From an uncultured Alphaproteobacteria bacterium (GTDB lineage Bacteria; Pseudomonadota; Alphaproteobacteria; Bin95): DNA of 32,225 nucleotides. The position numbers were made by a program, and so were the translations under genes. This document shows positions 7,238 to 16,544 of the stretch, one piece after another; within the stretch, counting starts at the first letter, position 1; each line of letters starts with the position of its first letter. The notes under the pieces were generated by a model. That model was not told the DNA's origin. It made no database searches and saw only the letters and a program-made list of their open reading frames with translations. The DNA lies in NCBI GenBank assembly GCA_937891825.1, contig CALAHN010000103.1, positions 1 to 32,225 of the forward strand. Direction: 5' to 3'.

Positions 7238-8700
7238 TCAGGCGACGGCGGTCTCGGCGCCGGATTGGGCGAAGGCGGCTGGCAGCTCCATCGCGGCGAT
7301 GGTGTCGCGAGCAGCCGACGTCTGGATAAGGCTAGCGCGGCCGCCATGCAGGCCCGCGACGGCGCGAACATAGGTCAGCCCGACGCCAAGACCTTCGTGC
7401 GAGCGCTCAAGGCGGGAATCCGCTTGCCCAAAACTTTCGAACGGGTCGGCTGTCAAGGGCGGTTGCCCCTCGGCGATGGCGTTACCGACCCAGAGCGAAA
7501 TTTCGCCATCCGGCAGCGCTGTCGCCCCAAGCCGGATCGCGCCGCCGGGCGCGCCGTATTTCGATGCGTTGCTGATGAATTCGGCCATGGCGCTGGTCAG
7601 CAGCCGGTGATCGTCGCGGATATGCAAGCCTGCGCTGTTGGGCGCCGCGTGCAACCGGGGAGCCAAACCCGGCTCCGCCTGGACCGCACGGGCGATCGCG
7701 TCCTTCAGAATGGCGGCGGCCGGCACATCGCGGGGATGGCTCTTGATCTTGCCGAGGTCCATCCGCGACAATTCCAGCATCTGGTCGATTTTCGCGACGA
7801 GGCCGCGGCCCGACGCAGCGATGATGCCGGCATAGTCCGCGATTTCGGCCTTTGCGGCCACGGGCAACAATTCACTGAAGCCGATCACCGCATGCAATGG
7901 CGTCCGCATTTCATGGGACAGCCGCGCGATAAACATCGACTTTGCGGTCGACAGCCGCTCGGCTTCTTCCTTGGCCGCGCGCAGGGCATCCTCGATCGCT
8001 TTCCGCTTCGACACGTCGTGGCAGGCCAGCGTGAATTCGCCATTCCCAAGCGCGCTCAGCCGAAATTCAAGGACGCCGTCAGCGGTTCCCGGCGCCGCCG
8101 TCTCGAACGGCTCCCCGGCACGGAGCGCCGGATTCGCCAACAACGTCGCGACGCGCGCTTCGACCGCGGCCTGATCCGCGCCTGGCCCTACCAGAAATTC
8201 GCCCATGCGCTGGTTCCAGATCGGCGTCCGCCCACTCGCTTCCACCGCCGCCAGGCCAATTTCGCTTGCGGCCATCGTCGCCGAAAGAATCTCCGATTGC
8301 CGGCGGATCTCAGCCGCGGATTCGGCGGCGCGAATCGCATAGCGAATGGCCTTCTCCAGCACCTCCGGCGAAATCCGGTCCTTGACCAGATGGTCGACGG
8401 CTCCCGCCTGCATGGCCGCAAAGTCGATTTCGCGGCCGCTGTGTCCGGTCAGCAAAATAAGGGCGTATGAACGCCTTGGGCGATGGCGGCGGCCACGATC
8501 TCGACGCCGGTTACCCCGCCGACGCGATAATCGCACAGCACGACATCATACTTCTCGAAGTCGACCTTGCCGTCAGCCGCATGCATGCCGTTCGACACCC
8601 AGTCGACGACATACTCCGCATCTGGAATCGATTCGATGCAATCGAGCGTGAGGAAATAGTCATCCTCATCGTCCTCAATCAGAAGCACGCGAATGGGCAT
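7238..8700 (-). pseudogene. Response-regulator/PAS/histidine-kinase hybrid, frameshifted
   Basis: Two overlapping frames make one gene. The first (from the ATG at 8700) encodes a receiver start with the acidic IEDDEDD cluster and phosphoacceptor Asp in LCDYRVG, then stops at 8449. The second carries on the receiver (LLTGHSG with the conserved Thr, LVKDR with the Lys), then a PAS-like domain, a HisKA domain with FIARLSHEMRTPLHAVIGF, and an ATPase domain with N box EFISNASKYG, F box FESFGQ and G2 box EGLGVGLTYV. The frames join at a run of three C (plus-strand GGG, 8461-8463), where one more base would restore the receiver. The G1 box is degenerate (VGNAIAEG in place of DxGxG), so ATP binding may be weakened too. 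It may be a true frameshift or a homopolymer sequence error. Last gene of the minus-strand operon, 25 bases after the lone response regulator. Confidence 0.85.
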
Positions 8701-8725
8701 GGCAGGGGTCGTCGCTACTTGAAGT

Positions 8726-9217
8726 TCAGGCTGCAGCCGTGCCGGCGCGCTCGTCGAACTGCCCGGGCAGTTGGACGATTTCGATCCAGTAGGACGTCAG
8801 CACCTGGGTCACGCGGAGCAAGCCTTCGAACGTCACCGGTTTGGTGATGAAGGAATTCACGCCTAGCCCGTAGGTGCGCAGGATGTCTTCCTCCTGCTTC
8901 GACGTCGTCAGGACCACGACGGGGATGCTGGCGAGCGACGGATCGGCCTTGATCCGCTTCAGCGCCTCGCGCCCGTCCATGCGAGGCATGTTCAGGTCCA
9001 GCAGAATCAAGCCGGGACGCGGCGACGACTCCGGGTCCGCCCATTTGCCGCGACGCTGCAGGTATTCCAGCAGGTCCTCGCCGTCTTCGACGAAATCCAG
9101 CCTGTTAGTCAGGCGGTTCTCCTCGAACGCTTCCTCGATCAGCATCCGGTCGTCCGGATCATCGTCCGCAACCAGAATGTTGATGCTTACGCCTTCGGTC
9201 ATAATTACATGCTCCAT
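8726..9217 (-). CDS. Rcp1-type single-domain response regulator
   Basis: A 163-residue protein that is essentially only a receiver domain. It has the acidic pocket VADDDPDD, phosphoacceptor Asp in LLDLNMPRMDG, the switch Thr in VLTTSKQ, the conserved Lys in ITKPVTF, and the insertion EYLQRRGKW typical of the Rcp1 group that partners phytochrome-like kinases. No DNA-binding output domain follows, so it probably acts through protein contacts or a phosphorelay. Its ATG lies 3 bases from the kinase stop codon, a strong sign that the large kinase is its partner. A second in-frame ATG at 9202 has GGAG at good spacing and could be the true start. Confidence 0.92.
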   Translation of the reverse strand: MEHVIMTEGVSINILVADDDPDDRMLIEEAFEENRLTNRLDFVEDGEDLLEYLQRRGKWADPESSPRPGLILLDLNMPRMDGREALKRIKADPSLASIPVVVLTTSKQEEDILRTYGLGVNSFITKPVTFEGLLRVTQVLTSYWIEIVQLPGQFDERAGTAAA

Positions 9218-9220
9218 GTC

Positions 9221-11356
9221 TTAGCGCCCCTGTTCCTGGCGCAATTGCTGCAGGGGCAGATGAATAGTGAAAACAGAACCGATGTCCGGCTGGCTCGTGG
9301 CGGAGATCACGCCGCCATGTCGCTCGACGATCTTGCGAACGGTCGCCAGACCGATGCCCGTTCCGTCGTACTCGCCGCGGCCGTGGAGCCGCTGGAATAT
9401 CGTGAAGATCTGCTCGGCATACTTCATGTCGAAGCCGATGCCATTGTCGCGTATGACGAGTTCGACAACCGGGCCGACCGACATCAGCAAAGGCGGACGG
9501 GCTTCGTTCGCCGTCATGACCTTGCCGTCGACGGTGACCACCGGCGCAACATCGGGCTTGCGATACTTGATGGCGTTGCCGACGATATTCTGGATCAACT
9601 GCCGCATCTGGGTGCGGTCGGCGTCGATCGTCGGCAGGTCGCCGACAATGACCTGGCCCGCCGCTTCCTCGATGCCGACCTGCAGATCCGAAATCACTTC
9701 CTGCGCCAGCACGGTCAGATCGCATTGCTCGAACGGCCGCGCCTTGGTGGTGACGCGGGAATAGCTCAACAGATCGTTGATCAGCGTCCGCATGCGCCCG
9801 GCCGCGTTCTGCATTCGGTCGATGCATTGCAGGCCGTCCTCGTTCAACTGGGCGCCGGCGCGTCGGCGCAGCCGGTCGCCGAACGCCTCGATCTTGCGCA
9901 GCGGCTCCTGCAGGTCATGGGACGCCACGGACGCGAAGTTCTCCAACTCCCGGTTCGACCGGGCGAGCGCCTGTTCGCGCGCCTTGAGCTCCGTGACATT
10001 CGTCGCCAGCAACACAGTCTGGCCATCCGCCGTCCGGTGCTGCTTCAGCATGATCCAGCCGCCATCGCGCGTCCGCCGCTCGGTCGTGAAATCCTCGCCT
10101 GGGGCCAGGGCTTTGCGGATCGCCCCCTCCGCCCTGACCGCATCCGGATCCAGCCCGGCCGCGATGCGGCGCTCCATATCCAGGTCGACAAGCGCGTCCA
10201 TCGTCAGTCCCGGCATCAAGGCCGAACGGATATAGCCCGCGCTTTCCAGAAAGAGCGAATTGCAGGTGATGAAGTTGCTATCGGCGTCGAACAGCGCCAC
10301 CGCCTCCGAAAGGCTCTCCAGAATGGCGCTGCGGCCACGGGCTTCGGCGGCGGCGGCGGCGATCTCCGCCTCCTTGATGCGTGTCTGATCCAGGATCACG
10401 CCGTCCCAGACGACCGTGCCGTCCGGCTTCCGCGTCGGGCGGGCGATGGCATGGGTGTATTTCCGGCGGCCGTCCTGGTCGACGATCGTCGCCTCGACAT
10501 CCCACATGGTCAGGTCGCGCGACGCCTTCAGCAGCCGCTCGCGGAAATCGCGGCGGTAGTCTGCGCCGTAGGTATCGAACAAGGCCCCGGAGTTGTTGAC
10601 AATCTCCTCGGGGCTGACGCCAAAAAGCTCCTCTGCCGCGCTGGAGATATAGGTGTAGCGAATGTCGCCGTCCGGCGAGACCGCCCGCTGGTACACAACG
10701 CCGGGGATACTGTCCGCCAGGGAGGCGAACCGGCGATCCGCGGCGTTGAGGGCGTCCCGCTGCCGGGCATGTTCGATGGCGAAGCTGGCGAGCGCCGCCA
10801 GGCCTTCGAGCAAGCGCTCCTCGATCCGGGTCGGCATGCGCTTCCGGCGGAAAAAGAAGCCAAGCGAGCCATGGGGCGCGGCGGCCTCGCCGACCAGGGG
10901 CTGCGCCCAGCACGCCCGCAAATCGTAGATCGGCGCGGTTTCGAAGGCGGGGCTCGGATTGTCCGCCGGCATGGCCGACGCAAGGTCTTCCACGAGGCAT
11001 TGAGCGACCGTCGCAAGCGCCGCCGTCAGCGGAAATGCCCGATCCGCGGGATCATGACGGCGCAAAGTCTCGAGATAGCCGGTCGGCAAGCTCCGGGTCG
11101 CGACGATGCGTCCGGCCTTGCCTTCCTCCGCCAGATAGACGCAGCAGCACGCGCCGGAAATCAGGCTCTCCGCGACATCCGCCGCCTTGAACAGGATGCG
11201 ATCGAGATCCTCCCCGTTCAGGATCATCGACAGCACCTTGTTCTGCTGCTTGACGAACAGCGCGAACCGTTCATGGGCGTCATGACCGTCATCGACAGCC
11301 GCGGCGGATGGCGCCGCGGTCGCTTTGGGATCGAGATGGCTTGTCGTCATCGACAT
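9221..11356 (-). CDS. Soluble GAF-PAS-PAS sensor histidine kinase
   Basis: A 711-residue cytoplasmic kinase without membrane segments. Order: a GAF-like domain (about 30-195), PAS 1 (about 205-325; SIPGVVYQRAV, SAAEELFGVSPEEI), PAS 2 (about 345-455), a HisKA domain with SVASHDLQEPLRKIEAF, where His is the autophosphorylation site, and an ATPase domain with N box NIVGNAIKYRK, G1 box IRDNGIGFD, F box IFTIFQRLH and G2 box GTGIGLATVRKI. The HDLQEPLR H box is the phytochrome-like (HWE-distinct) type that goes with Rcp1-type regulators, in line with the adjacent receiver gene. There is no PHY domain or obvious bilin-binding pattern, so light sensing is not supported. Its input may come from the neighbouring binding protein or a small molecule. 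Confidence 0.93.
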   Translation of the reverse strand: MSMTTSHLDPKATAAPSAAAVDDGHDAHERFALFVKQQNKVLSMILNGEDLDRILFKAADVAESLISGACCCVYLAEEGKAGRIVATRSLPTGYLETLRRHDPADRAFPLTAALATVAQCLVEDLASAMPADNPSPAFETAPIYDLRACWAQPLVGEAAAPHGSLGFFFRRKRMPTRIEERLLEGLAALASFAIEHARQRDALNAADRRFASLADSIPGVVYQRAVSPDGDIRYTYISSAAEELFGVSPEEIVNNSGALFDTYGADYRRDFRERLLKASRDLTMWDVEATIVDQDGRRKYTHAIARPTRKPDGTVVWDGVILDQTRIKEAEIAAAAAEARGRSAILESLSEAVALFDADSNFITCNSLFLESAGYIRSALMPGLTMDALVDLDMERRIAAGLDPDAVRAEGAIRKALAPGEDFTTERRTRDGGWIMLKQHRTADGQTVLLATNVTELKAREQALARSNRELENFASVASHDLQEPLRKIEAFGDRLRRRAGAQLNEDGLQCIDRMQNAAGRMRTLINDLLSYSRVTTKARPFEQCDLTVLAQEVISDLQVGIEEAAGQVIVGDLPTIDADRTQMRQLIQNIVGNAIKYRKPDVAPVVTVDGKVMTANEARPPLLMSVGPVVELVIRDNGIGFDMKYAEQIFTIFQRLHGRGEYDGTGIGLATVRKIVERHGGVISATSQPDIGSVFTIHLPLQQLRQEQGR

Positions 11357-11421
11357 GAAGGTGCGTTCCTGCTTGCTCGTAACTGATCCAGCGAAGGCCC
11401 GGGTTCCGGTTCGACCCCGCG

Positions 11422-12630
11422 TCAGTCGGCGCTGAGGCCGATGGAAGCGACACGGCCGTTGCGGACCTGCTTCCCGTCATAGCCATAGATGTAGGTCGCG
11501 CTTTCGAAGAAGTTGAACGGCACGCGCAAGCCGATTTCGCGGGCTTTCTTGAAGTTGATCGCGATATCGGGCGGGGAGACGATGCCGACCGGAAGCGCGC
11601 CGACGGACCGCCGGGCAGAGAGCACCTCGCCGGCATAGATCGCGGCGAGGTGGGCGTTCGATTCGAAGCTGATGCCGATCGACAGGACCGCGGTCGCTTC
11701 AGTGCCGTTCACCACCTCCGGCACGACGCTCAGCACCGGCACGCGGTCGGCATGGGCATTGATCGTCTCGATTTCCTTGAACACGGCCGTCGAGCCCGTG
11801 ATCCAGAACAGCGACTTCTCAAGCTTGGGATCGCTCTTGCGCATCTGCGCGACCGTATCGGCGACGATCTCGCTTAACTCGGCTCTGGCGTCCTTCGGGT
11901 TGTTCACCACCATGTCGAAGACCTGCATGCCGCGCTGGCGCACATATTCCGCCATCGGCTTGGCTTGCGTCTCGACAGCGCTGACATTCTGGCCGTCGAC
12001 CAGGATGCCCATGTTCTGCAAGCCCGGCAGCGCCTGGGCGATATAGGAGAACTGGACTTCAACCGGCATGTTGAGCGAGGTGAAGGCGAAATTTCCGCCG
12101 GCGCCTTCGTCATAGCGGGCGGCCTGCCCAAGCAGCACCGGGTCCTTCGAGCAGACGGAGACGACGGGCAGCCTGCCGCCGCGATAGTTCTCGTAGAACC
12201 ACGCGGTGGATTCCGATCCCATCGACATGACGATGTCGTAGCCCTCGGCTTCCGCCAGCGCGATCGCCGCCTGGCCCCGCTCGTGGGAGTTCCGGAAATT
12301 GTAGATCGTGAAATCCGCGTCGATGCCCTTGGACGCGAACACCGACAGGATCTGCGTGATCGCGACGTCATAGGCGGACGACGGACGCGGATAGACGACG
12401 AGCACCTTCTGCTTGGCCTCGCCGGGCGTGCGGCCCTGACGGACGACGCGGCCCATAAAGGGGTCGCCGACATCCGGCACGATCTTCCAGTCTTCCTGGA
12501 CCGCCCCGCCGACACGGAACCAGTCGCCAAGCGACGTCTCCGGCGCGGCCGCATAGGCCGGCGTGGCGAAAGCGGTGACGGCGGCAATGCCGATAGCGAA
12601 CGCCAGACGGCGCGGAAATGCGAAATTCAT
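11422..12630 (-). CDS. ABC-type periplasmic substrate-binding protein, orphan
   Basis: A 402-residue secreted protein. The signal peptide has the Arg-Arg n-region, a hydrophobic core and a cleavage site after ATPAYA. The mature part resembles the ABC_sub_bind family (PF04392): a first lobe with KVLVVYPRPSS and DIVMSMGSESTAWF, and the C-terminal block GIVSPPDIAINFKKAREIGLRVP, which matches the family's closing segment. In that family the gene normally sits beside permease and ATPase genes; here none is in the window, and neighbours are an MFS carrier and a histidine kinase. A receptor role is therefore plausible, with the protein reporting ligand to the signalling genes. The start is the ATG at 12630 (GGGGAG about 9 bases upstream), just after the MFS stop; an in-frame TTG lies three codons earlier. 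Confidence 0.85.
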   Translation of the reverse strand: MNFAFPRRLAFAIGIAAVTAFATPAYAAAPETSLGDWFRVGGAVQEDWKIVPDVGDPFMGRVVRQGRTPGEAKQKVLVVYPRPSSAYDVAITQILSVFASKGIDADFTIYNFRNSHERGQAAIALAEAEGYDIVMSMGSESTAWFYENYRGGRLPVVSVCSKDPVLLGQAARYDEGAGGNFAFTSLNMPVEVQFSYIAQALPGLQNMGILVDGQNVSAVETQAKPMAEYVRQRGMQVFDMVVNNPKDARAELSEIVADTVAQMRKSDPKLEKSLFWITGSTAVFKEIETINAHADRVPVLSVVPEVVNGTEATAVLSIGISFESNAHLAAIYAGEVLSARRSVGALPVGIVSPPDIAINFKKAREIGLRVPFNFFESATYIYGYDGKQVRNGRVASIGLSAD

Positions 12631-12635
12631 CTCGG

Positions 12636-15077
12636 TCAACTCCCCGATTTTGCGATTGAATGGTCGATACGGGAGGGCTTAAGCGCGAACGCAGCCGCCA
12701 TGAGCAACATGACGACGCCGACCCAGGCGATCGATTTGCTGGCGACAAGTCCGCTCGCCAGCATCTGCCCGATAATGGCGGGACCGGCGACATGGCCGAT
12801 CCGCTCGAGAAAGCGATAGGTCGCAGTGACGGTCTGCGCGCCGGTTTCCGCCGCGACCGGCGTGGTCGCGATATGGGTGACGACCGGCGCGTTGATCAAG
12901 CCGTGCGCCAGCCCGAGGATCGCGACGGCGAGGATCATCGCCACCGTGTTCAGGTCGCCGCCGACAATCTCGACCTTCAGCCCGCCCGGTCCGAAAACGC
13001 CGATCGCGATCAACGCCAGCGCGGAAAGAAAACAGCCGGCCAGCAGCACGTCATCGGTGCAGCGGGTGCGATCGACGAAAGCCGAGACATATCCGGATGA
13101 CGCCAGCACGCAGCCAGCGTAGATCATGAGAATCTGCCCGATGTCTTCCTGGCGGAAATCCCCCGACGCAAGCATCAAGGGCAGCGCGAAAATCACGACG
13201 CCTGTCAGGACGGCTTTCGCCGGAATGCCGATGAGCAGCATGGTGCGCAGGAACTCGGCGTCGCGGAAGACCAGGGCCATGTCGCGCGCCAGCGAGTTGA
13301 GGCCCGGCGCCGGGCCGGACGACGCCTGGTCGGCGCCCTTCTCGGCGGTCATCGCTCGGCCCGGCACGACAAGGATCGTGTAGACGGCGATCAGGAAGGC
13401 GACCGCCGCTGCGATGAAGAACAGGTCGCTCCGCCCGATATGCGTGACCAGCAGCGATCCGATCGCCATGCCGGTGATCATGCCGCCCTGGAAGCCGAAC
13501 ACGATGATCGCGGCGCCGCGCGTCTTCCGACCCGGCGACGCGATGTCGAGGATGTAGGACTGAACGCCGATGAACAGGATGCCCTGGCCGATGCCCGAAA
13601 GCGCCCGCGCGCCGCACAGCACATAGAAATCCGGGGCGACCGCGAGGCACAGCAGCCCGAAGCCGGAAGCCGCCAACCCCCAGAACATCAAGGGCCGGGC
13701 GCCGAACCGCTGGCTGAGCCGACCCGCCGGGATCAACGACAACGCGAAGAACAGGTAGTAGAGCGTGAACGGCACGGACGCGAAATCGCGCGCCAGTCCG
13801 GCGCCCAGGACCAGCTCGGTCACATATTGCGGCAGGAAGGCATAGGCCAGATGCTCGCTGGCGACCGCGATGAAGAAGACCGGTTTGACCAGGTTCAACA
13901 TGGCCGCATCGCCGGAATCGACAGCGCTTGCCGGCGGTCCATGGCCTTCCGGTTGATGGCCGGCGAGCCGCCGGAGCGACCCAGCGATCTGCAAGAATAC
14001 GCCCGCCATCAGGGCCGATGCGATAAAGAGCGCCGCGAAATTCTTGATGCTGCGCACGGTCTGCATGATGACGACATCGGCCGGAATCGCGACGGCAAGC
14101 TTGATGTCCCGGCCGCCGGGCTGCGTCATGTCCGAAATATACTCGTAGTGATTGGGATTGCTTTGCCATTCCTTGCCCGCCAGGCCGGGCGTCGTATGGA
14201 AGCGGACGCTGCCGTCGACGATGATCGCCGCATGCGCCATGTCGGGATTGAGCGCCCGATAATCCGCGAGCAGGTCGTCGATGCCGTCGATTTCCCAGAT
14301 GTTCAGACCGAACGCGACAATATTCGCCAGCCGTTGGCCGAGCGTATCGGCCAATGATTTCGACTTGGCCTGCGTGCCTTCGGCGTAGAGCGTGATCAGC
14401 GTCGCGATGACGACGCCGGAAACGCCGATGAACGATGCGGCGAACAAGGCATGCAGCCATTTCTTCCTGCCGCCCAGGTCGGCGCCCAGCACCGACGTCG
14501 CGAGGCCGAAAGCGATCGCCGCGAACACCGCGGCCGCGAGCAGCGGCTCAAACCCCGACTGGACCCGCTCGATCACGAAGGAGCGCGGCATGGTGATGAC
14601 CAGACTGGCGACCTGCTCGAAGCGATTGTGCAGCGGCAGCAGGACCTGGATGAGATCATCGTTCGACCGCACGCTGAAGCTGTTTTCAGCGACCGGCTTG
14701 GCGCCGGGTTCGGCCGGCAGCAGGGCTTCGCGGATCGATGTCGCGTCGGGCGTCTCGCTGTCGCCGAAGACATGGCGTTCTTCCATGTCGAAGATGGCGA
14801 TTGCGGCGATGGTCGAATCGGAAGCAAGTATGGTGCGGGTTTTAGCCTCGAAGCCGTCGAACTGCTTGATCGGATGGCCCGGGCGCAGAAACTCGTTCAG
14901 CGCCGATTGCAGATAGCGGCCCTGGGAAGCCAGCTTGTCCACCTGGAACTGTTGCAGGGTCCGGGTCGCCTCGCCGTAGCCGACATAAAGCAGCAGGACA
15001 AGCGATAGCCCCGCCACGATCGTCATTGTGATGGCGTTGGCGAAGAAGCCGCCGGCAGATCGTTTGGCTATGCGCAT
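12636..15077 (-). CDS. MFS transporter with two N-terminal membrane-anchored sensor modules
   Basis: An 813-residue inner-membrane protein of unusual build. Residues 13-33 form TM1, followed by an extracytoplasmic segment (34-176), TM2 (177-198), TM3 (208-231), a second extracytoplasmic segment (232-344) and TM4 (347-366). After a short linker, residues about 394-805 are a 12-TM major facilitator domain with AGRLSQRFGARPLMFWGL, a loop 2-3 motif A variant, and GARALSGIGQGILFIG. The two outer segments look like paired CACHE/CHASE-type ligand sensors; the second has WEIDGIDDLLADYRALNP, as in CHASE8-like domains. Ordinary MFS carriers are 400-450 residues, so about 390 residues are added. It lies between the ATP-grasp enzyme and the binding protein in one operon, 25 bases and 5 bases apart. 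Transport substrate unknown; sensor assignment is from weak pattern similarity. Confidence 0.85.
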   Translation of the reverse strand: MRIAKRSAGGFFANAITMTIVAGLSLVLLLYVGYGEATRTLQQFQVDKLASQGRYLQSALNEFLRPGHPIKQFDGFEAKTRTILASDSTIAAIAIFDMEERHVFGDSETPDATSIREALLPAEPGAKPVAENSFSVRSNDDLIQVLLPLHNRFEQVASLVITMPRSFVIERVQSGFEPLLAAAVFAAIAFGLATSVLGADLGGRKKWLHALFAASFIGVSGVVIATLITLYAEGTQAKSKSLADTLGQRLANIVAFGLNIWEIDGIDDLLADYRALNPDMAHAAIIVDGSVRFHTTPGLAGKEWQSNPNHYEYISDMTQPGGRDIKLAVAIPADVVIMQTVRSIKNFAALFIASALMAGVFLQIAGSLRRLAGHQPEGHGPPASAVDSGDAAMLNLVKPVFFIAVASEHLAYAFLPQYVTELVLGAGLARDFASVPFTLYYLFFALSLIPAGRLSQRFGARPLMFWGLAASGFGLLCLAVAPDFYVLCGARALSGIGQGILFIGVQSYILDIASPGRKTRGAAIIVFGFQGGMITGMAIGSLLVTHIGRSDLFFIAAAVAFLIAVYTILVVPGRAMTAEKGADQASSGPAPGLNSLARDMALVFRDAEFLRTMLLIGIPAKAVLTGVVIFALPLMLASGDFRQEDIGQILMIYAGCVLASSGYVSAFVDRTRCTDDVLLAGCFLSALALIAIGVFGPGGLKVEIVGGDLNTVAMILAVAILGLAHGLINAPVVTHIATTPVAAETGAQTVTATYRFLERIGHVAGPAIIGQMLASGLVASKSIAWVGVVMLLMAAAFALKPSRIDHSIAKSGS

Positions 15078-15102
15078 GATCCGGGTTCCCCGCCGCCCTG
15101 GC

Positions 15103-16359
15103 TCAACCCAGCAATGCGTCCAGGGCCGTCACCGCGCCCCGGCGCTTGCAATACAGAAGGTCGATCCGATCGGCGAACATCGACCGGATCAGATCGTCGT
15201 AAGTCATGCCTTCGGCCGCCAGGCCGGTCGTCACGATGCTGGTCAGTTGCGGCGTCGGCGCGGCAAGGTCCGGCTTCGGATTAGCTTCAAGGATGTGCAG
15301 CTTGCCGGCTGCATCGGCGCGGATATCCAGGCGGATCAGGGATTCGAGCTGCATGTCCTCATAGACCGCATGCGCGATGTTCTTCAGGTCCGCGATCACG
15401 GCCGCGTCCTGCGCGGGGTCGAGCGGCCCGACGCGGTCGCCGGTGATCGGCTTCTTGTCCATGGACGTGAAGATCAGTTCATTCGCGTCGAGGCGGCGCT
15501 CGGCCGGCGAGAACGCGAACGGCGCCGAGCGTCGGTCCAGCATATTGCCCCGCGCGACGACAGGGCCGCCGATGGCGATGCAATATTCCCGCCCTGGCAG
15601 ATAGGTTTCGATCAGAACGTCGTTTTCCGTGGCGGCATAGACTTCGTCGATGACTTCGGCGAGGTCGTTGACGTCGTCCACGACATGGACATGCAGCGAC
15701 GCCCGACCGGAGACCGGCTTGACGATGAAGGGGCCGCCGAAGCCCTTGAAGGCGCGCTCGAACCGCCGGTCGCCGCGCGGGTCCGGTCCGCCCATGGCGG
15801 CGGGGTTCCAGAGCGCGAACGCTGCGGTCGGCAGGCCGAGATAGGCGATATTCTGCTTGAAGACATACTTGCTGTCGAGAATGCCGGTCATCAGCGGGTC
15901 ATGGCCAAGATAGGGCACGCCCAGCATCTCCAGCGTCGCCGCGGCATGGGACATGGGGCTGCGGCCCTGAACGCCGCCGGTGTTCAACCAGACGAAGTCG
16001 ATTTCGTCCTTGCTCAAACGCTCGCCAAGCCGCATGTCGTCGGGGAGCAATTGCACATTGCGCGCGCCCTGCCGCCTGAGCGAGTCGCCAATGTTCTCGG
16101 CGACGCTTCTGTAGCTTTTCCACGAGCGCGCATTGACCGCCTGGCGAATGACCGCGCCTGGCTCGCGCTTGTCGCCGCCATAGACGATTGCAATCTTCGC
16201 CCGGTCCAGCAATTGCTCGACCTGTGCTTCCAATTGATCGAGACGTCCGATGCGGCGGGAGGGCGTGACTGCCCGATTGCCGAAGCTGAAGGCCCCGGTA
16301 TTCCCCAGCTTTTCAACGGTTTCGATTTGCCCAAGCGCCTGTGCAGCCGCTATCGCCAT
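15103..16359 (-). CDS. ATP-grasp enzyme, D-Ala-D-Ala ligase-like
   Basis: A 418-residue ATP-grasp protein related to D-alanine-D-alanine ligase (COG1181 type). Visible features are the [10 protein letters not shown] strand near residue 75, the central [10 protein letters not shown] lysine strand that contacts ATP, the [13 protein letters not shown] loop, and the metal-binding end motif LRLDIR followed by EANPKPDL, in place of the EINTxPG of true Ddl. This variant occurs in ligases that act on small peptides or amino acids outside the cell-wall pathway, so cell-wall function is unlikely. An extra N-terminal region of about 70 residues precedes the fold. The ATG at 16359 has AAGGAT about 9 bases upstream. 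It is the first gene of the signalling/transport operon and may make the compound the carrier moves, but that is inference. Confidence 0.8.
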
Positions 16360-16544
16360 GCCACGCGATCCTTCCGATACGTAGCCACACACTTATCGAT
16401 CGCGTTGAAGGAACCCTTAATTTCGTCGGCGCTTTCGGAAATATCGAACGGTTCCGCGGTTTTTGCGCCGCTGGAATAATTGCGCCATTCGCGTATAGAT
16501 TCCGGCAAAACAATCACGGGCGACCGGAACGGGAGGCGATCACG
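16360..16544. promoter_or_regulatory. Divergent control region between the ATP-grasp operon and ilvD-like gene
   Basis: This 185-base gap is the only likely place for promoters of the six-gene minus operon and the plus-strand dehydratase. It has AT-rich patches and a direct repeat of TTGCGCC at 16463-16469 and 16480-16486, 17 bases apart. A TATAGAT block at 16494-16500 could be a -10 for the dehydratase, but no well-spaced -35 is visible. No regulator gene is adjacent. Confidence 0.3.

Follow-up and report, generated by a model that had tools for sequence, protein, structure and literature searches.

We analysed a contig of 32,225 nucleotides (nt) from an uncultured alphaproteobacterium (assembly GCA_937891825.1, contig CALAHN010000103.1), the whole of which is called the window below. 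At positions 7238-16359 its minus strand carries six coding regions, in which a D-alanine--D-alanine ligase (Ddl)-like ATP-grasp ligase, a sensor-fused carrier of the major facilitator superfamily (MFS) and a periplasmic binding protein precede a set of two-component genes. An earlier reading of the letters alone, hereafter the sequence-only reading, had proposed six minus-strand genes here, separated by gaps of 25, 5, 65, 3 and 25 bases and including a binding protein with no ATP-binding cassette (ABC) permease or ATPase nearby. All six coding regions were found in the open reading frame (ORF) lists of the window, and their starts (16359, 15077, 12630, 11356, 9217 and 8700) reproduced the intergenic gaps. 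The families assigned to the first five genes (ligase, MFS, PF04392, GAF-PAS-PAS kinase and receiver) were borne out by Pfam, and neither the ORFs nor Pfam revealed an ABC permease or ATPase gene near the binding-protein gene in the operon. The features of the locus are as follows.

15103..16359, minus strand: core gene 1, Ddl-like ATP-grasp ligase of 418 amino acids (Pfam, family alignments, PDB profile search, separate Ddl in the genome)
12636..15077, minus strand: core gene 2, carrier with two external domains, reasonably taken as Cache/PDC-like, and a 12-helix MFS domain (Pfam, AlphaFold2, fold searches)
11422..12630, minus strand: core gene 3, PF04392/TrpX-like periplasmic binding protein with an N-terminal extension (Pfam, alignment, PDB profile search)
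9221..11356, minus strand: output gene, soluble GAF-PAS-PAS histidine kinase (Pfam, head profile, motif check)
8726..9217, minus strand: stand-alone receiver of 163 amino acids, Rcp1-like in size (Pfam)
7238..8700, minus strand: gene of a REC-kinase; a frameshift falls at about 8458-8461, and the ATP-binding motif is degenerate (frame check, homologue ORFs)
16360..16544, no strand: intergenic region between the operon and a divergent ilvD-type dehydratase gene (plus strand, likely start 16545); probable promoter region, by prediction (ORF lists, Pfam of the neighbours)

Conservation of a three-gene core

In a scan of 84,980 species, each represented by a single genome, the ligase profile returned 169 relatives, and the loci studied were the best 80 of these 169. 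The genomes were mostly metagenome-assembled genomes (MAGs), and the profiles were trained on sequences collected in this analysis. The order ligase, fused carrier, binding protein was found in 58 of 60 non-redundant ligase-carrier loci across phyla, which supports the central idea of the sequence-only reading, a unit of these three genes; the two loci in which no binding protein followed (L107 and L109) were cut by contig ends. The gap between ligase and carrier did not exceed 100 nt in 58 of the 60 loci, nor did that between carrier and binding protein in 56 of 58. In 27 of these 58 loci the latter two genes overlapped by 4 nt, an arrangement typical of translational coupling. In about ten loci the binding protein seemed to be missing, an artefact of start codons placed too far upstream, together with the overlap filter. 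Outside cyanobacteria and a few other organisms, the gene after the ligase encoded the fused carrier, and the next one the binding protein. Of the nearest relatives, G001 keeps the order of the window up to a contig end within the kinase gene, the remainder of which lies on a second contig, and G003 keeps it except for the ligase, which is beyond the reach of its contig.

The hosts of the core were mainly Alphaproteobacteria (Kiloniellales, Rhodospirillales and many Rhizobiales), and further cases came from Spirochaetales, one Chloroflexi MAG and the Clostridia isolate Pseudobacteroides cellulosolvens. In a phylum sample of 377 genomes, all hits were alphaproteobacterial. A MAG titled Anaerolineae (L114, JANQQD010000019.1) had the gene content of the alphaproteobacterial contig L074/L119; it is likely mis-binned and was handled as a duplicate. 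In two Spirochaetales loci (L160:6281-7666 and L175:8547-9926), genes for a secretin-domain protein and for a further PF04392-type protein lay upstream of the core.

Within Alphaproteobacteria the core-type ligase was rare, occurring in 9 of 387 sampled genomes. The fused carrier occurred in 36 of the 387, including all nine with a core-type ligase (hypergeometric p about 2e-10), and a tenth genome with only weaker ligase relatives (1e-130) had no fused carrier. The distance matrices of the three core proteins were correlated (r = 0.79, 0.76 and 0.92), with none of 999 permutations reaching values as high, as expected if the genes were inherited together. When loci were picked by the fused carrier alone, the distant branch described below included, a PF04392-type gene lay within 4 kb in 37 of 39. 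Judged by these sequence comparisons, the ligase, the fused carrier and the binding protein form a fixed core that is inherited as a unit. Proximity by accident of six unrelated genes has nothing in its favour except the broken sixth gene; it is refuted for the three-gene core by the order conserved across phyla and by the co-occurrence above, and we regard it as negligible.

The core was also found on plasmids of Vibrio, where its proteins were 41, 30 and 35 percent identical to the three of the window. In V. tubiashii p251 (L202:8980-15139) and V. crassostreae p2 (L203:8977-15295), the core, with a second binding-protein gene after it, lies inside a type VI secretion system (T6SS) operon, immediately upstream of the FHA gene. 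T6SS on a V. crassostreae plasmid has been studied, and a review makes no mention of the core genes (PMC6863884). Two alphaproteobacterial loci of the distant branch also stand beside T6SS genes, L033:8153-17993 with TssH and L096:8859-19501 with TssH, TssK and FHA; this association is apparently separate from the one in Vibrio.

In this distant branch, which includes another genus of the family of the window genome, related carriers and binding proteins were accompanied by SpoIIE phosphatases and sometimes STAS proteins. In the place of the core ligase stood a pair of short ATP-grasp proteins, an ATP-grasp_4 protein or a ligase of the GCS2 family. Loci combining a SpoIIE-type protein with the sensor-MFS and PF04392 genes were L033, L034, L035-L038, L041, L072, L073, L084, L086, L088, L090 and L092-L094. 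Such distant loci often carried STAS or an RsbW-like ATPase, and their enzymes included a TauD dioxygenase and a formyltransferase domain protein. Proteins of about 220-260 amino acids with no Pfam match followed the binding protein in several loci of the distant branch (L087:11282-12025, L093:11438-12226 and L097:11303-11962). In Microcoleus-type cyanobacteria, the same ligase family was encoded directly after an EamA carrier gene, with neither MFS nor binding protein, in 14 of the 19 loci examined that lack the core. A gene for a coiled-coil protein was often next in these cyanobacterial loci (e.g., L148:7407-9733 and 13 more).

Properties of the core proteins

The ligase of the window matched Dala_Dala_lig_C in Pfam (1.4e-13), and its ATP-grasp catalytic residues (K214, E251, R343-D345 and E358-N360) were invariant in an alignment of 35 sequences. 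It shares these residues and the fold with D-alanine--D-alanine ligase, and differs from it in a longer N-terminus and in an NPKPDL loop at the place in the active site where Ddl carries its own motif. Its score against the Ddl model TIGR01205 (69.7 bits) was far below the curated cut-off (245.65 bits). The window genome encodes a separate true Ddl with a TIGR01205 score of 261.5, which rules out the housekeeping Ddl as the identity of the window ligase. A peptide or amino-acid conjugate as the ligase product would fit the protein families and the recurrent swaps with other amide-forming ligases.

The carrier (813 amino acids) matched MFS_1 (PF07690) over residues 401-766 (1.5e-33). AlphaFold2 models of it were confident, with a predicted local distance difference test score of 87.7 for the whole protein and of 89.4 for a separate model of the N-terminal 375 residues. 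The MFS part was modelled as a standard 12-helix domain (about 380-800) with fold matches including YajR and VMAT, and it resembles drug:H+ antiporters. In front of it, the model placed two external alpha/beta domains (about 65-165 and 256-332), each flanked by long membrane helices. A fold search with the whole carrier picked up the MFS part only; the external domains were searched through a separate N-terminal model and matched WalK/YycG, DctB, Mlp24 and PctA (E values of 3e-7 to 2e-2). Pfam gave no Cache match on the window carrier, and a Cache/PDC-like assignment of the modelled domains is reasonable but provisional.

The binding protein matched ABC_sub_bind (PF04392; 5e-9, 36.2 bits against a cut-off of 25.9) and, in a PDB profile search, 6hni (3e-13) and 3lft (4e-10), which makes it distantly TrpX-like. 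A genome-wide PF04392 search meant to count further binding proteins also missed the window's own copy. The alignment showed a conserved N-terminal extension, and the family profile covered 403 positions, compared with about 300-320 residues in TrpX relatives. The literature places TrpX in a tryptophan uptake system (PMC9382623). The window protein resembles such TrpX-type ABC uptake systems in its binding-protein family and differs from them in its longer profile, in its tie to an MFS carrier and in having no permease or ATPase.

Exchangeable outputs behind a shared head

In the window, the core is followed by a kinase with GAF_2, two PAS, HisKA and HATPase domains (Pfam) and by a stand-alone receiver (Response_reg, 6e-22). 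The boxes of the kinase are intact (SHDLQEPL as the H box, DNGIG and GTGIGL), and the receiver has the phospho-acceptor Asp and the Lys, so that the pair has the H, N and G boxes and the receiver residues of a two-component phosphorelay. The second kinase does not, owing to a frameshift and a degenerate ATP-binding site. Its REC half (MPIRVLLIEDDED...) starts at 8700 and runs into an in-frame stop, and the remainder lies in another frame from about 8460. The frameshift, within 8440-8480 of the window (ACGCCC/TTATTTTGC), is not present in homologues. Because ten homologue ORFs at other loci run unbroken across this point with both halves in one frame, the frameshift is read as a mutation or a draft-assembly error in the window genome, and a programmed frameshift finds no support. 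A DxGxG motif, retained in the homologues, is missing from the ATP-binding domain as well, and the REC-kinase is probably non-functional as sequenced. The sequence-only reading had called this gene a REC-PAS-kinase; the REC and HisKA-HATPase parts stand, while Pfam detected no PAS domain and the frameshift excludes a single open frame.

The nearest output in the 58 core loci was a histidine kinase in 21, a GGDEF(-EAL) protein in 18 and a class III cyclase in 6, with none detected in 13, counts that vary with thresholds and flank length. Among the 13 loci without a detected output, nine had a short flank on at least one side, and in three (L031, L124 and L127) a head-bearing protein began but ran off the contig. 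A histidine kinase and a small receiver adjoined the core in 12 non-redundant loci. In most Rhizobiales, the place of the kinase and receiver was held by a GGDEF-EAL protein that has this GAF-PAS-PAS head too. A profile of this head built from kinase-type loci only matched the core-adjacent GGDEF-EAL proteins over most of its length (1e-107 to 1e-199), with the exception of two Bradyrhizobium loci (L111 and L118) that had only one PAS domain in common with it. Long head matches (E < 1e-90) were found in 6 of the 387 genomes, all of which had the core, with the head adjoining it (p 2e-11); one of them is G001, with its kinase split between two contigs. The other genomes matched only the PAS part of the profile, at 9e-62 or weaker.

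On a ligase tree from a quick search, which contains some long branches, the output type changed at least seven times, where three states would need two changes. One kinase-type locus (L120) was nested in the GGDEF-EAL clade. Devosia loci had a kinase-receiver hybrid as output, and L103 and L104 had a GGDEF-bearing protein at the position of the REC-kinase. As traced by profile and tree, the GAF-PAS-PAS head stays with the core while the catalytic half switches between kinase and GGDEF-EAL. The sequence-only reading had expected all six genes to be kept together in related genomes. This holds for the three-gene core, but a single fixed unit of six genes is ruled out, since the outputs vary among loci; the kinase set counts as one alternative among several rather than as an integral part of the unit.

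Possible function and rival explanations

We consider the chances about even that the core and the conserved head act as an input module, in which the product of the ligase is moved by the carrier, monitored by the binding protein and the Cache domains, and read by the head. The ligase would join two small molecules into an amide-linked, dipeptide-like product at the expense of ATP, and the MFS part would take this product through the inner membrane, with outward movement the likeliest. In the periplasm, the binding protein would capture the product or a competing cue and dock on the Cache domains, which would gate the carrier. The state of the carrier, or the level of ligand in the cytoplasm, would then be read by the GAF-PAS-PAS head, which may bind the ligand there or touch the carrier. 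From the head, the signal would pass by phosphotransfer to the stand-alone receiver and, in relatives, into cyclic di-GMP (c-di-GMP). The most economical assumption is that the carrier and the binding protein handle the ligase product, because the types of ligase, carrier and output can each change while amide-forming ligases stay paired with a carrier. Docking on the Cache domains is inferred from the precedent of binding proteins that stimulate kinases and c-di-GMP receptors (PMC9602780).

A more specific form of this module, in which the core is a 'write-export-read' cassette, is put forward tentatively and is rather unlikely. An amide signal made by the cell itself would be exported through a self-gated sensor-carrier and read back by a dedicated binding protein, providing a standard input for phosphorelays, c-di-GMP, cyclic nucleotides, partner-switching phosphatases or T6SS. 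Several observations weigh against the input module itself. The co-inheritance of the core would equally fit any operon with a common task, and four loci (L130, L163, L175 and L177) had no detected output despite at least 5 kb on both sides. The cyclase-type partners shared the head only weakly (7e-9) or had dCache domains instead, and the second kinase is broken in the window genome.

The rival that survives best, possible if somewhat unlikely, is a transceptor for an outside nutrient: the carrier would import or sense an amino-acid-like compound received from the binding protein, the ligase would conjugate it inside and the output would adjust behaviour, with no self-made signal. UhpC is a carrier that acts as a sensor. 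CbrA offers a further precedent for such a carrier (PMC13022988), and the binding protein is similar to TrpX, which serves tryptophan uptake (PMC9382623). However, the ligase comes first in the core at every locus of the core branch, and in cyanobacteria it accompanies an unrelated EamA carrier with no binding protein, an arrangement that export of the product fits better. For these two reasons, we prefer export followed by periplasmic read-back to nutrient import; the resemblance of the MFS domain to antiporters points weakly the same way.

That resemblance, to drug:H+ antiporters in particular, would also suit an ordinary natural-product or detoxification operon, in which a compound made or conjugated by the ligase is pumped out by the MFS protein and the signalling genes merely regulate the operon; ligase-exporter pairs are common in natural-product clusters. 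We consider this explanation improbable, given that the gene set includes no transcription factor, that outputs without DNA-binding domains (GGDEF-EAL, cyclase and stand-alone receiver) interchange behind the same head, and that the carrier itself bears two fused sensor domains.

Comparison with known systems places the module among forms of carrier-coupled signalling. An MFS protein takes part in sensing in UhpABC as well, where UhpC is an MFS-type sensor without external sensor domains, ligase or binding protein and UhpB is a membrane kinase; the GAF-PAS-PAS kinase of the window, in contrast, had no membrane domains in the Pfam result. The SLC5/STAC transceptor kinases (CbrA/CbrB, CrbS and RpuS) likewise tie a membrane carrier to a kinase output (PMC13022988, PMC9100948). 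In these, an SLC5 carrier is fused directly to the kinase, with no ligase or binding protein, whereas the window has an MFS domain joined to external sensors and, on a polypeptide of its own, an output of exchangeable type, here a soluble kinase. In binding-protein-stimulated receptors of the BctC/BctE type, a binding protein is also encoded beside the signalling system, but it docks on the periplasmic domain of the kinase itself (PMC9602780); in the window system, only the carrier has periplasmic sensor domains.

Carrier-based sensing (CbrA, PMC13022988) and binding-protein-coupled sensing are already known, and what may be new is their combination with a ligase and exchangeable outputs. We found no description in the open-access literature searched of a ligase, a Cache-fused MFS carrier and a binding protein combined with a shared head on varied outputs, in line with the sequence-only reading, which had called the gene set undescribed. 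These results suggest that the ligase, carrier and binding protein, coupled to varied signalling machines, constitute an undescribed way to make, move and sense a small molecule. The exchanges of catalytic domain with the head kept constant amount to a natural experiment on the function of the input. If the 'write-export-read' interpretation is true, the core would represent an undescribed class of system by which bacteria sense each other or themselves. If the input-module reading holds, these bacteria would have in common a standard sensing input, open to connection with phosphorelays, with c-di-GMP, cyclic-nucleotide or phosphatase outputs, and perhaps with T6SS. That reading would also give a testable function to genes that usually bear no more than the labels 'D-Ala-D-Ala ligase', 'MFS transporter' and 'ABC substrate-binding protein', among them the ones on the Vibrio T6SS plasmids.

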